64,000 nt of DNA. Origin: Symbiodinium natans. Taxonomy: Eukaryota; Sar; Dinophyceae; Suessiales; Symbiodiniaceae. Positions 6,101 through 49,300 of the stretch are shown here, in pieces (position 1 is the stretch's first letter; each line of letters opens with the position of its first letter). Below the pieces are notes generated by a model. It did not search any database and was not told the origin of the DNA. It was given only the letters and a program-made list of their open reading frames with translations. The stretch is from the NCBI GenBank assembly GCA_905221605.1, contig CAJNDS010002115.1, forward strand, positions 58,501-122,500, given 5' to 3'. The position numbers and the translations under genes were made by a program.

Positions 6101-9100
6101 GTTGGGTTAGGCGTGGTGAGTTGTTCACACTCCAAGGCCATGCCGTCCCTCCAACTTCCCCATTTCCCCTACCCAGAAGCCCAAAAGCGTGGCCCGAGGA
6201 TCATTGGAGGGCTCCTAGGCCGAGTTTACGCACACGTGCTGCTGCCGGAATGGTTCATTGAGATGCTCCTGCAGAAGGAGCTGAGCTGATGGGTTTAGGT
6301 CAAAAGGCTGGAGCCGAAACTCCTAAACTGTAACCTCAAAAATCCTCAATGCCGAACCTTTAAGGTCGAAACCAGGGCGTTTACCTCTCAGTTTTACCAG
6401 CCCTGTGCAGGACGGCGTGCCACCCACCGAGCTGGAGAAGGGAGATCCTTGCTTGGCCATTGGTGTATTTGAGGTTTGGGTAAACCACCCCAAACCTGTA
6501 ATCCCTCGATCTTGGGCTTGTATTGAATTGTTCAAATGAAGGTCCAAAACCCTTATAAGCCCCTGCCAGGCAGGTGCTCCCTCTTTTTTTGTTGCGTGCC
6601 AAGGCCTTCATGGCGCGGTGTGCCATTGTAGGACCTTGGGCTTAAGGGTTAAGGGGTCTGTCGGGTTGAGGCAGGCTTCCAGGCGCAAAAAGGGCTTCAG
6701 GGTTCTGTCGTGAATGCAGCTCTTCCAGGCGTGTGCTGGCGGTTTGCGCGTCTGTGCATTGGAGGCTATTTGGGAGACAGTGATTTTTTTTCAGTCTTAT
6801 CTCTCTCTCTCTCTTTCTCTTCTCGCTCTCTCTCTCTCTCTCTCCCCTCTCTCTTATCTCTCTTCTCTCGCTCTCTCTTGTATGCTCTCTCTTCTCTCTC
6901 TCTTCTCTCTCTCGTTCTCTCTCTCTCTCTCGTTCTCTCTCTCTCTCTCGTTTTTGTTTTGCTCTTCTCTCTCTCTCTCTCAAGCATGCGCCCCTACGCT
7001 CTGCGCTGTCTGTGCCTCCTGCACATCGTAGTGAATATGAACATGTTGTACGCACGTAGCCTATCCGTTTTGGGCACGGACTGAGCTTGTGGGTGCAGCC
7101 CGGGAGTTGAGCCTTGGAGGTTGGAATCTGGAGACTCCTGCAGACTCAAGGAAAGCGAAGGCATACAGTAAGCTTTATGCGGCATGTGTAGCAGAGCAAG
7201 TCCTCGAAGCCCCCAAGAGCCACAGGAGCCTCAGCGTTCTGCTCCGCTGTGTGCCGGGCCTTTGCCATGGCGATCACTGTGTTTGAGGCAATCTCTTTGT
7301 ACCGGGCATGGCAGTTAGGCTTTCTTGCAACGGGTTGAAGCAGGCTGCTCCTGAACAGGACGCTTTGTTTCTTTGGGTCTTCTCTCAAAAGCAGAAGGTG
7401 AGGCTTGTTTAAGCTTACAGCTTCGAAGTTTTCAGGGCCGAGTTGGCCTGCCCTGTTGTGGTGACGCTCACTGCCCCAGGCTAGGCCTCCCATCTCCTAT
7501 CACTTTGTTTTGGATCCCAGCGCTGCAGCATCTCCGTAGATGCCACCCTCGTCACGCAACGCCGAGCCCGAAGCCTTAAGCCCTGATGCCAGAGCCCCAA
7601 GCGAGGTGTTGGCGCTGCCGAACTCCGTGCTGCCGCTGCTTGGGCGCAGATTCCACGAAGCCCCAGTCATCGTCATGAGTCTCATAAAAAAGCCACTCTG
7701 CCGGCCTACGCCCCCCAGCTTTCAACCAGACCCCCTCCTGAGAGTCGGGGAACATCTCCTGCCGGCAAAGGTGCCCCCACAACCCCCCTGCCCAGGGCGA
7801 GAGCAATGTGTGGTAGGAAGAGGCGCCTTTTCACTCATGTAAGGGGCCGAAGTTCAGGGTCTAAACGCTCCGCCCGTAATTTTCAAACCCGAATGAATTC
7901 CCCCAACATGGAGCCCCAACCCCCTACAACCCTGAACCCTGAACCCTATACCCTAACCCCCCCCCCCCCCATCCCCCCCCCGCGTGCATAGTCTGAGGCT
8001 TTGCTGTGCTTCCCTGGCCGCCATCTTCGTGGCAAACAAGGACCTCATGCTGGAGATCGGTTTAGGGTTTTCCTCAACCCCAGGGCCCTTGAAGGTTCAG
8101 GATGTTTCGGCTTGGATTTGCAGCTGAGGGCGGATTTTCCGGCAACCCCGGCAACGCCGGTAACCTCAGATCCCAGAAATTCCCAGTCTATCAACTACTA
8201 GGGACTACCACCCTCAAGCCATTAAAGGGCCTAAACGGAGCTTTTGTTCAGAGAGATTCCAAACACAAGTCGCTTCGACCCGTGTAGACGCCCAGACCCT
8301 TTAAGGCTGTTATGCAACACTCAAATAGCTAAGCCGCCGAACCCTAAATCCTCAAAGGCCTACAAAACCTTAGAGCCCAACGCAGGTATCTCTGCCGTTC
8401 TTCGACGCCAACCTGGCAACCAGAAATCTCGGGGGCATCCCGGCCATCACCTTCACGGACAAGGCTTTTGGGTGCTTTGGGAAGGGCTTCTCAGGCCCCC
8501 CCAATCTCCTCACAGCCATAAAGCCGCAAAGCCCGCAACACCTCCCCCATACCGTCATAAGATCGACATACGAAAATCAAAATGTAGAAGTATGATCAGA
8601 TCGTAATGTAGAAATACCTTCATATATTAATAGAAAAATGCATTCTTACAGTAAGATAAGGGAAAAACGAAAAAATAGTTTTAAATAGGTTAGTATTAAA
8701 AAGAGTCTATGAATAGAAACATCAAAGAGCTCTCATGGTTTCAACTCCAGGCTCTCGAGCCGGTCATGAAGGTGATGCAGGTGGTCGAGATGGGCGAATG
8801 CCTGCCCCAGGTCACCTCCTTGCGCCATGTTCTGCAGGCCCCCAAGGAAAAAGGGCCTCAAGGGTTTAGGGCCCCAGAGCAACCAAAGAACCCTAAACCC
8901 TGGGCCCTCAACCCTCAACCCTAAGCAGTTCTGGGGCCCCTGAACCCGAAAGCCCCACAGCCTCCTACATGCGCCCAAAGGGCTCGAGGGTTCAGACCAT
9001 CTAGGCTTGGGGGTGTTAGGGGGTTTGAGTCCCCCCCCACCCCTTCCCAAAGGGCCCAGAGAGCCAGGTCCTGATGTCCACGAAGCACGACTTCTTCCCC

Positions 9101-46312: not shown

Positions 46313-49300
46313 ATTGGCCTCGCCACGGCTATGGAGTTCCTGGTTGGCCTGGATTTGGAGAAGAGACCTGGCGGTATAAGGGCTCCGAAGTTGGGTGATC
46401 TGGGGGGGTACCTTTTCACGTTTTCCAGGCTCTTAGGATGTCGGGTTCGCCTTCGCAGAGGGTTTGGTTGGGGGTAGGGGGATGCGGAGCTTGGGTTTTG
46501 ACTTCGAACTTTCCTGCTCTCCTAAAGCTTCCTGGCCCGGAGGCCCCAAACCCGGGAAAAATGGAACCCCAAGCAGTCTCTGATGATTCTAATGCACCAT
46601 GGACCAACGAATAGATATGCGCATCTGAGCCATGACGCCTTCCACTCAACACGTTTGCGAGAGAAAAGCAGCCCTTCGATTTCCAAGTGACAAGAGACGA
46701 GACTTAACACTAAACCCTAAACTCTAAACCACTAGTGCCCTGCAGTGTGTCCGAGAGGTCAGCGAGGCCGATGGCAAAAAAACCCTCAACCCTAAAATTA
46801 AACGCTAGACCCGACACCCTCAACCCTGACTTGCCTCGTAGCCCGAGGCCTGTGGCCGGGCTCATCGGCGCGGCGACCTCTGTGGTCTCAGGGCCCCTGG
46901 CGATACTTGCAGGCGGACAAAAGGCCCGTCTCTGTTGTAGTGGCAGCTGATGACTCCTCCCTTCCTTTGTGTGGAGCTTGGGTTCTTTTTGTGGGGGGTT
47001 GTCAGAGTGCCGTAAGTGACCGTGCAACTCCCTGCAACGGACTCTGCAACGCCTAAGCCCTAAGCCCTAAGCCCTAAGCCCTAAACCCGAAACCCTAAAC
47101 CCTAAACCCTAAGCCCTAAACCCTAAACCCTAAACCCTCTTGAAGTAGGTGCCGCAGATCTCCTTCGGAGCGACAGCCCCCACGCTCTCGAACAAGGCGA
47201 GAGAAGAAGGGAGGGGGTAAAAAAGGAGGGGGAGAGAATCCCTTCCCCCTAATCGGTCCGTTTAGGGGTTTAGGGGTTTAGGGTTTAGGGTTTAGGGTTC
47301 CCCCCATACAACACTAAAGGCGTGGAATAGGGGCGGTTTAGGGTTCAGGCTTTAGGGTTCCCCCCCCCGAATATTGAACCCCCCCACCCCCAAATATTGA
47401 ATTCCCCATACTAGGGGTAAGGGATGCTTAGAACCTCTATTCGAATCCCTGGCAAGGACCCTTAGTAAAAAGGAGCATCCCAACTTATACCACGGAATCC
47501 TTGTATTCATAGATTCCTAAGCTACACAAAAAATGCCTATTCTAGTGAAAATGGGTCTCTCCGAGGTTCAGGAAAAGGCTTTTCGGAGAGAAAAGGCTTC
47601 CTAAACCTGTGAGGAAAGCTACCCCTACTTCATGCGCACGATCCCACCGGATAGCATCCAAGCTTTGGCGTTCTGGGCGTGGCTGGTGGTCTTCAACGCC
47701 CCTTGGCCAGACTTCCATGATTCCATGGGATGTTCGGGCTAGGAGCTGCTGACGTTTCTTTGCACACCTACTCGCCCTCTCCCTACCTTGCTTACTCTAC
47801 GCCATACCGTACTACCCGACACCCTGCCCTGTTTGAACGCTCAAGGGTAGCTATGAGCGACATCGTGGCTAAGCCACCGCCGGATCCCACACATCTTTTC
47901 CTTAGTAGCTGAGTGAGCGCACACTTTACACATTTTGGGATACTATAACCCCCTAAAGAACTGAAAATGAACACATTTTTTGGGGCTTGTGAACTCAGCA
48001 ACTAAAGTTCCCTAGGATGCGATAGGACGAAGGACAGCACGCAGAGGTCTGAAAGGTATCGGCTGGAGGGATTGCATGCTTCCTGCATGAGCCGGCTACC
48101 TTGCTTACACCTCTCACCCATGCCCCATCATGATAGGACGTCGAGGCTTTTTAGGGCATCCAATCTGAAAAGCTCTCCGGTTGTTCGTGATCCACGAAAC
48201 AACCTTCAGGCCCCGGGATGTTCGCGGGGCCTTCGAACACCCTCAGGGCGTTGAAGGCCGAACGGAAGCCTCGAAACAGCCTCCCCCAAAGGCTTGATAC
48301 CCCCAAAGGCCCAAGACCCTCAAGACGCCAAGAGACTCGCTCTGAGGTCAAGTTTGCCTTGTGCATGTACTCCGATGAGGCCTCTGCTTTCGGCCGGGGC
48401 TCAAAACCCCCTTACTCCTTCGCACCCTCCCGAATCTCAAACCCTTGTTTGGCTCTTAGTCGACAATTCGACATCCTAAACCCCAGATCCTGAAGCCCGA
48501 GCCCTAAACCCTAAAAAGACCAAACTTAACCAAAGGAACCTGCAGTGGGCCGCCAAGCCTCCACTGCTGATTTTGTGGGCGCCTTTTGTCTTTTTGGTTT
48601 GCGAGAGAGGGCGTGTGCCGAAGCAGGGGTCCACCCATGTGTCCCGAACCCCGTGGACCGCTCCCCTTGGGGGTTCATGGGTAGCTATAAGTAGGGGGTT
48701 ATAGCCAGGTATGACCCCACTGTCCCCGCTTCTGGCCCCACTTATACCCATGAACCTCCTTTTTTACAGGCGTACGGCCAGGGCATCTTCCTGGCATTGC
48801 AGGAGGAGGCAGCCAGGGTGTGGCTACCAGTGAAAGCGGGTTGGGCCGGAAGTGGGCAGAAAAACTTCACACTTTGACACAGACTCAAAGCACGAGAAGG
48901 CCGGACACCGGCTAAGATTGCGATGTACGTAGGTAGAGGGGGTCGTGGCGCTTGGGTTGGCTTTCCTCAAGGACACACCCCAAGCCAAAAACCCCTAAAC
49001 CTCAAACTGGCCTGTTTGCGTCCCCCGATACTGACACCAGTGACTGTCGCCAGTGTTTCAGCTTCAATGTGCAAAGTTGCTATCCTGCAGTATGGCAAAA
49101 AAACTGCCCCGAGTTTCCCGAGCGGGCATGCCAGGTTGGCAAAAGGCTGACATGCAAGGCTTGAGGTTTATCAGTGCACTCACAGACCCGCGCAGGCCAT
49201 GGCAAATGGCGATCCGGATCGTGTCGTAGGCGCGCCGGGACTCCGACTGGTTCCTGCCTTTGTCCGGCCCTTGCGACCCGGCCCTGACCCCAAGAAAAGG

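Follow-up and report, generated by a model that had tools for sequence, protein, structure and literature searches.

Exon-oriented telomere-type repeats in introns of Symbiodinium natans and the strand asymmetry of intron ends

Do telomere-type repeats that lie inside genes take their orientation from the neighboring exons, and does such an orientation serve splicing? The question is raised by a stretch of 64,000 nucleotides (nt) from Symbiodinium natans (assembly GCA_905221605.1, contig CAJNDS010002115.1, positions 58,501 to 122,500 of the forward strand), referred to here as the window and numbered from its first base. Dinoflagellates have long, intron-rich genes that are spliced with degenerate GC/GA/GT donors. 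A preliminary description of the window, made from the sequence by eye of a model, had placed C-rich CCCTAAA-type repeats just before many exons and G-rich TTTAGGG-type repeats just after them, and had read this as a telomere-repeat-based system of intron definition in which the two ends of an intron pair with each other. We mapped exons of a GRM1-like receptor gene, a CLC chloride-channel gene, and an RPAP1 gene from homologous proteins and counted repeats around their 88 introns (CLC 27, RPAP1 19, GRM1 42). The orientation is confirmed in part, and the interpretation placed upon it is partly supported.

Telomere-like arrays, called from 14-mers that differ from the tandem unit at no more than two positions, occupy 3,782 bases (5.9%) of the window; ten sequences simulated with a first-order Markov model have 14-87 bases each (about 0.02-0.14%). 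As tandem telomere-type repeats at non-terminal sites, which also appear as TRF arrays, they are interstitial telomeric sequences, and 71 of their 79 clusters lie within mapped introns. Among clusters no more than 100 nt from an intron end, 37 of 42 are G-rich after a donor or C-rich before an acceptor (p = 4.4e-7), a sense we call right, and the bias is present in each gene (GRM1 13/14, CLC 13/15, RPAP1 11/13). Adding three introns of a gene nested within RPAP1, which were left out of the 88, gives 38/43. More than 200 nt from intron ends the polarity is gone (8/16). The preliminary description had proposed counting repeats within 150 nt of exons; done in the window, this count upholds the orientation overall (42 of 50 clusters right-sense, 8 wrong-sense), but beyond position 47300, past the last exons it had listed, the bias at that distance falls to 11/15 (p = 0.12). 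Within 100 nt of the intron ends in that region, 9 of 10 clusters are right-sense (p = 0.02), an independent confirmation that is real but modest.

The asymmetry is also found where there are no arrays. In the 42 array-free introns, the first 50 nt have a GC skew of +0.19 and the last 50 nt one of -0.26, with a value of approximately zero mid-intron, and the TA skew is +0.10 at starts and -0.09 at ends. This intron-end skew decays over about 100 nt; it is thus present without repeats and fades away from splice sites, as a skew coupled to splicing would. With arrays masked, GC skew is seen in all three genes, and the pooled skew is roughly strand-symmetric, with T and G first and A and C last. 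Two elements of the preliminary description are supported by these data, namely introns that start G-rich and end C-rich and the orientation of the repeats relative to exons.

A signal specific to the telomere unit is not supported. The most polarized 4-mer after masking is CCCC/GGGG (415 right vs. 158 wrong), followed by ACCC, CCCT, AAAC, CCCA, and AACC, with several words of the telomere unit among them. Non-telomeric heptamers of the same composition as the unit, counted outside arrays, are right-sense by 113:38 within 60 nt, or by 180:83 when the distance is raised to 100 nt, and are near equal mid-intron (C 287, G 309). Rotations of the telomere unit outside arrays give 31:13 and 37:21 at the same two distances, and so behave like their compositional peers, while the arrays themselves are more polarized. 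For a single telomere unit, the masked base skew predicts ∼75% right-sense, compared with the 88% observed for clusters (95% confidence interval 74-96%). We also considered whether the whole skew derives from decayed telomere arrays. This is disfavored because 5-mers of the telomere unit are raised 1.1-1.9 fold over first-order Markov expectation in all parts of introns, mid-intron included, and because CCCC/GGGG is the most polarized word.

On balance, we lean towards an explanation in two parts, an intron-end composition maintained by splicing and the in-place expansion of telomere-type microsatellites. The repeats would be ordinary interstitial telomere-type microsatellites of a dinoflagellate genome, set in introns whose G-first, C-last composition extends over approximately the first and last 100 nt and is carried mainly by G-runs and C-runs. 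New telomere-type words, and their expansion, would favor the orientation that matches this composition, and the opposite orientation would be rarer. The skew may be kept because G-runs past donors, and tracts before acceptors that are rich in C and poor in G, aid recognition of the degenerate GC/GA/GT donors and of AG acceptors followed by G, and wrong-sense arrays may be removed because they disturb that recognition. An earlier idea that G triplets near donors act as splicing enhancers is compatible with such a role. That splicing is the cause of the skew we infer from the sequence, and a hairpin between intron ends would be unnecessary.

Several points weigh against this explanation. The analysis covers one 64-kb window. 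Within 100 nt of intron ends, 1,388 array bases are right-sense and 162 wrong-sense, and telomere words with arrays included stand at 349:23 within 60 nt, although counted words overlap, so that neither this nor the other word counts are independent; together, the two figures indicate that long arrays are nearly always right-sense. Against a background of 75.5%, at least 37 right-sense clusters among 42 has a probability of 0.036. Clusters also crowd intron ends, with 30 within 60 nt vs. 15.8 expected from random placement (p = 0.001), which compositional sense alone does not explain. The masked AT skew is uneven between genes, both over the first 50 nt (GRM1 +0.11, CLC 0.00, RPAP1 +0.23) and over the last 50 nt (GRM1 0.00, CLC -0.17, RPAP1 -0.04), and homopolymer runs of G or C have a weak, non-significant polarity (13/18 within 60 nt, p = 0.10). 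The array excess and the weak homopolymer polarity leave room for a factor peculiar to the telomere unit or to long arrays. A further reading is that Symbiodinium has come to use telomere-type repeats as oriented signals on either side of exons, C-rich before and G-rich after, which RNA-binding proteins would read at each splice site or which would act as RNA quadruplexes. They would partly replace the weak donor and polypyrimidine signals of the lineage and would work for single splice sites or exons, not for whole introns. We consider this quite unlikely.

The make-up of the arrays bears on where they came from. Homogeneous runs of the variant units CCCTCAA, CCCTGAA, and CCCTAAG (10412-10496, 15296-15419, and 18512-18781) suggest local expansion in place over fresh telomerase product. 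Insertion of telomeric repeats at breaks is documented in mammals (PMC2246262), and if telomerase extended each 3′ end with repeats at a break in coding DNA that later became an intron, TTTAGGG would lie on the left and CCCTAAA on the right whichever strand carried the gene. Break repair of this kind predicts the observed sense without splicing, and an enrichment of arrays near intron ends. However, right-sense arrays lie from 2 to more than 80 nt off the boundary rather than abutting it, many are built of variant units, and the polarity extends to G/C-rich 4-mers and to words that match the unit in composition but are not telomeric. We regard this origin as improbable.

The preliminary description held that many introns carry both arrays, G-rich at the start and C-rich at the end, which could pair as RNA and bring the splice sites together. 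The count does not bear out that many do. Arrays at both ends are found in 4 of the 88 introns (8041-8385, 10635-11462, 34769-35472, and 57127-57557), while 19 have a G array at the start and 18 a C array at the end; co-occurrence is therefore at the level of chance (4 vs. 3.9 expected, Fisher p = 1.0). Nor is complementarity significantly higher between the two ends of one intron than between ends taken from mismatched introns (p = 0.18-0.95), as compared over 20, 30, 60, 100, and 150 nt for the 88, 88, 85, 78, and 60 introns long enough. In GRM1 alone, same-intron complementarity reaches p = 0.06 at 100 nt and p = 0.13 at 150 nt.

RNA folding of five hand-picked regions shows G arrays pairing with whichever C array is there. 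In region 10400-11500, where a C array is on offer both within the intron and across the exon, the G array pairs over 46 nt with the former and over 31 nt with the latter, and in region 34700-35560, which offers only the same-intron partner, 28 nt pair within the intron. In the other three of the five, where no C array stands at the intron end, the G array finds its partner on the far side of the exon (33-63 nt paired), an arrangement that would loop the exon out. Folding alone therefore does not speak against a hairpin where both arrays exist; the rarity of array pairs and their chance co-occurrence do. The spacing of neighboring clusters within 250 nt points the same way, with C-then-G order in 12 (7.2 expected) and G-then-C order in 3 (7.3 expected), so that the nearest partner lies across an exon more often than across an intron. 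We consider an intron-closing hairpin very unlikely.

Inverted repeats at intron ends are also used to call introners. Introners with terminal inverted repeats and 4-bp target-site duplications have been described in S. microadriaticum (PMC9860276), and introner elements that bear simple inverted repeats at both ends are reported to be overrepresented in the introns of P. cordatum (PMC10666404). If the present introns began as non-autonomous DNA transposons, the arrays could be grown or decayed terminal inverted repeats and the polarity a relic of insertion. The pooled skew is roughly strand-symmetric, as such a relic would be, though its AT part varies between genes. Introners as defined by Farhat and Dougan occur in a genome as numerous copies of similar sequence and have an inverted repeat of 8-20 nt within 30 nt of each end and direct repeats, or target-site duplications, of 3-5 nt. 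Exact inverted repeats of at least 8 nt within 30 nt of both ends occur in 0 of 88 introns, where mismatched introns give an expectation of 2.1. Repeats shared by exon end and intron end, at lengths of 3-5 nt, are not above permuted values (12 vs. 14.2 at 3 nt, 2 vs. 4.6 at 4 nt). Repeats shared by intron start and exon start number 13 vs. 8.1 at 3 nt (p = 0.06), 3 vs. 2.1 at 4 nt, and 0 vs. 0.6 at 5 nt. At 2 nt there is an excess of the latter kind (40 vs. 28.6, p = 0.0035; GRM1 alone 19 vs. 14.6, p = 0.08), but it is small, falls below the defining length, and may reflect the placement of boundaries. The presence of an array at one intron end is, moreover, independent of that at the other. 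An introner origin thus appears doubtful to us.

The arrays could instead act around the exon, with the C-rich flank before it and the G-rich flank after it working jointly in exon skipping or the formation of circular RNA, or with sense G-quadruplexes (G4) acting just past weak donors. A C array upstream and a G array downstream are found at 7 of 85 exons vs. 3.8 expected (p = 0.053), and a mapped exon (in one case the weakly supported exon at 18842) lies inside 8 of the 12 close C-then-G pairs, compared with 0 of 3 G-then-C pairs. Counted as motifs, G4 sequences occur in the first 100 nt in the sense strand of 13 introns and in the antisense strand of 5 (n = 88), and in human and mouse, G4 motifs near weak splice sites modulate splicing (PMC9065059). 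These statistics are borderline, and complementarity across exons is little above that of mismatched pairs (p = 0.73, 0.06, and 0.05 at 60, 100, and 150 nt). Before acceptors, G4-type motifs are in the C-rich sense in 17 introns vs. 1, while in the human data the asymmetry at 3′ splice sites favors the sense strand and is weak when pooled (PMC9065059). An exon-centered function therefore seems unlikely, and composition maintained at each intron end is the explanation we carry forward.

The splice sites themselves fit the species. Donors of GRM1 comprise 25 GC, 9 GA, and 8 GT among 42, and 40 of its 42 acceptors are followed by G, in agreement with figures published for S. natans (GC 58%, GA 18.4%, GT 23.6%, AGG 97.1%) (PMC10666404). 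Across the 42 GRM1 introns (41464-63526), donors have C at position +5 in 69% and G at positions +8 and +9 in 57% and 50%, unlike a GTRAGT donor, which possibly points to lineage-specific U1 pairing. A C-rich rather than T-rich tract before acceptors sets these introns apart from those of most eukaryotes. The suggestion that the repeats contribute branch points through CTAAAC was not borne out, with CTAAA/CTAAC outside arrays at 1.34 per kb 10-60 nt before acceptors vs. 1.13 per kb mid-intron. The broader motif CT[AG]A[CT], again outside arrays and in the same interval, occurs at 2.95 vs. 1.68 per kb mid-intron (∼1.8x, 11 hits) and may be a trace of the branch point; CTGAC and CTCAC are about double before acceptors relative to mid-intron, with 4 and 6 hits.

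These results rest on exons mapped by homology, and an ab initio exon list served only to nominate candidates. For GRM1, the S. natans protein P0009 (1,427 residues) matches with full identity from residue 1 to residue 743 over 43 exons on the + strand, and the gene continues beyond the edge of the window after residue 743. CLC exons were placed by spliced alignment of P0012, P0013, P0015, P0021, and P0029; the gene has a Pfam Voltage_CLC match (6.4e-17), and the homologs named by organism, among the matches listed, are from Durusdinium, Cladocopium, and Symbiodinium. RPAP1 exons were placed with P0001, P0002, P0003 (Polarella glacialis), and P0006, and the gene has a Pfam RPAP1_C match (3.4e-13). 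No protein named as S. natans is among the matches listed for the three genes searched besides GRM1, a listing that for CLC covers 120 of 154. Boundaries are those of the protein alignments, and several in RPAP1 differ between homologs and were picked by hand. RPAP1 segments with low identity or a single homolog were removed before counting, including 36659-36675, 37076-37094, 37146-37184, 38026, and all after 38803, while the first exon (18842) is weakly supported, matching one homolog at 9 of 19 residues. The median length is 402.5 nt for introns and 53 nt for exons. The genes and principal arrays are listed in Table 1.

Table 1. Genes and selected telomere-like arrays in the 64-kb window.
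Feature	Positions	Strand	Remarks
GRM1-like receptor gene	41392..63590	+	43 exons, alignment of S. natans protein P0009
CLC chloride-channel gene	66..13552	+	28 mapped exons (66-188 ... 13463-13552), spliced protein alignment
RPAP1 gene	18842..38799	+	20 mapped exons used (18842-18898 ... 38743-38799), spliced protein alignment
C-rich array	7927..7960	+	before CLC exon 7998-8040
C-rich arrays	10412..10560	+	before CLC exon 10582-10634
G-rich array	10672..10781	+	after CLC exon 10582-10634
C-rich array	11371..11421	+	before CLC exon 11463-11487; shares intron with 10672-10781
C-rich array, CCCTAAG and CCCTAAA variants	18509..18784	+	before exon 18842
G-rich array	18913..18999	+	after exon 18842-18898
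C-rich arrays	24710..24862	+	before RPAP1 exon 24932-24988
G-rich array	24998..25050	+	after RPAP1 exon 24932-24988
C-rich array	26226..26513	+	ends 4 nt before nested-gene exon 26518-26610
G-rich array	34799..34873	+	30 nt after RPAP1_C exon 34721-34768
C-rich array	35439..35470	+	ends 2 nt before RPAP1_C exon 35473-35538; shares intron with 34799-34873
C-rich array	36432..36506	+	before RPAP1 exon 36578-36628
G-rich array	36635..36671	+	after RPAP1 exon 36578-36628
C-rich array	42508..42602	+	2 nt before GRM1 exon 42605-42658
C-rich array	47052..47140	+	before GRM1 exon 47149-47196
G-rich array	47262..47301	+	after GRM1 exon 47149-47196
C-rich array	57370..57548	+	before GRM1 exon 57558-57590; beyond the range of the preliminary description
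Wrong-sense C cluster	8887..8951	+	just past donor, CLC exon end 8837
Wrong-sense C cluster	23514..23625	+	21 nt past donor, RPAP1 exon end 23492

The exons on which the preliminary description relied were largely well placed. Twelve of its 15 exon starts hold, 11 of them as exact mapped starts (7998, 8386, 10582, the weak 18842, 21695, 24932, 35473, 36578, 42605, 46848, and 47149) and one, 26518, as an exact start in the nested gene. The start at 46736 falls within a GRM1 intron, and those at 15465 and 30936 found no exon support from the homologs tried and are absent from the intron set. Its exon ends were less exact, with 5 of 9 matching (8837, 24988, 34768, 36628, and 47196), three off by 10-23 nt, and one unmapped. 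A C cluster does lie no more than 150 nt upstream at all 15 starts, and a G cluster begins no more than 150 nt downstream of 8 of the 9 ends, the exception being 8058, where the cluster (8057-8072) starts one base earlier.

Other features of the window lie within or beside these genes. Of six RPAP1 homologs, five have 1173-1489 residues and P0005 has 823, and only approximately the first 40% of RPAP1 can be placed before the start of GRM1 (interval 38800-41391); the remainder is missing, diverged, or elsewhere. The nested gene is a four-exon, kinase-like gene of the same sense (25583-28081), apparently inside the RPAP1 intron between exons 25323-25371 and 30283-30344. A Symbiodinium protein named FNTB matches it at 86% identity, and an Alexandrium relative, named as an aminoglycoside phosphotransferase domain protein, at 63%. 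Two further same-strand nested genes are indicated by Pfam, an OsmC-like open reading frame (31716-32309) inside an RPAP1 intron and an ankyrin-repeat open reading frame region (43723-46043) inside the GRM1 intron 43429-46312. An AGT repeat of 128 copies (60753-61137) lies in a GRM1 intron, 93 nt past the donor at 60659.

How does this arrangement compare with known systems? Among the literature matches listed, a set in which subscription papers largely fall outside, no paper describes telomere-type repeats oriented relative to splice sites. Splicing-coupled strand asymmetry shares with the present introns a strand-specific base skew tied to exon-intron structure, but as reviewed for human and mouse, introns have T over A and G over C throughout (PMC10030826), whereas here the GC skew flips between the two ends, with C over G before acceptors. 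Similarly, the enrichment of G-runs and G-quadruplexes at 5′ splice sites shares the excess of sense over antisense G4 motifs just past donors, while the human 3′ side also favors the sense strand (PMC9065059) and the C-rich sense dominates here before acceptors, much of it in telomere-type microsatellites.

Inverted repeats at intron ends are reported for dinoflagellate introners (PMC7789003; PMC10666404; PMC9860276; PMC11114475), in the Symbiodinium group roughly 4% of genes are reported to contain introner elements (PMC11114475), and hairpins joining exon boundaries have already been proposed for the introners of Amoebophrya (PMC7789003). Unlike these, the 88 introns have no end inverted repeats of at least 8 nt, no clear target-site duplication, and no significant same-intron pairing. 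Interstitial telomeric sequences, in turn, share tandem telomere-type units off chromosome ends (PMC2246262; PMC6395649), and fluorescence in situ hybridization in Karenia finds interstitial telomere signals to be rare (PMC6395649); compared with those described in these papers, the arrays here are frequent, often variant, intronic, and oriented to splice sites. We conclude that splice-site-oriented telomere repeats are a variant of splicing-linked strand asymmetry, not a new system.

For the calling of introners, this comes with a caution, as inverted repeats at intron ends can stem from composition alone when a mismatched-intron control is left out. For S. natans, intron ends that run G-first and C-last, visible even in the commonest microsatellite of the window, are a candidate exon-marking signal, one that could improve gene finding.

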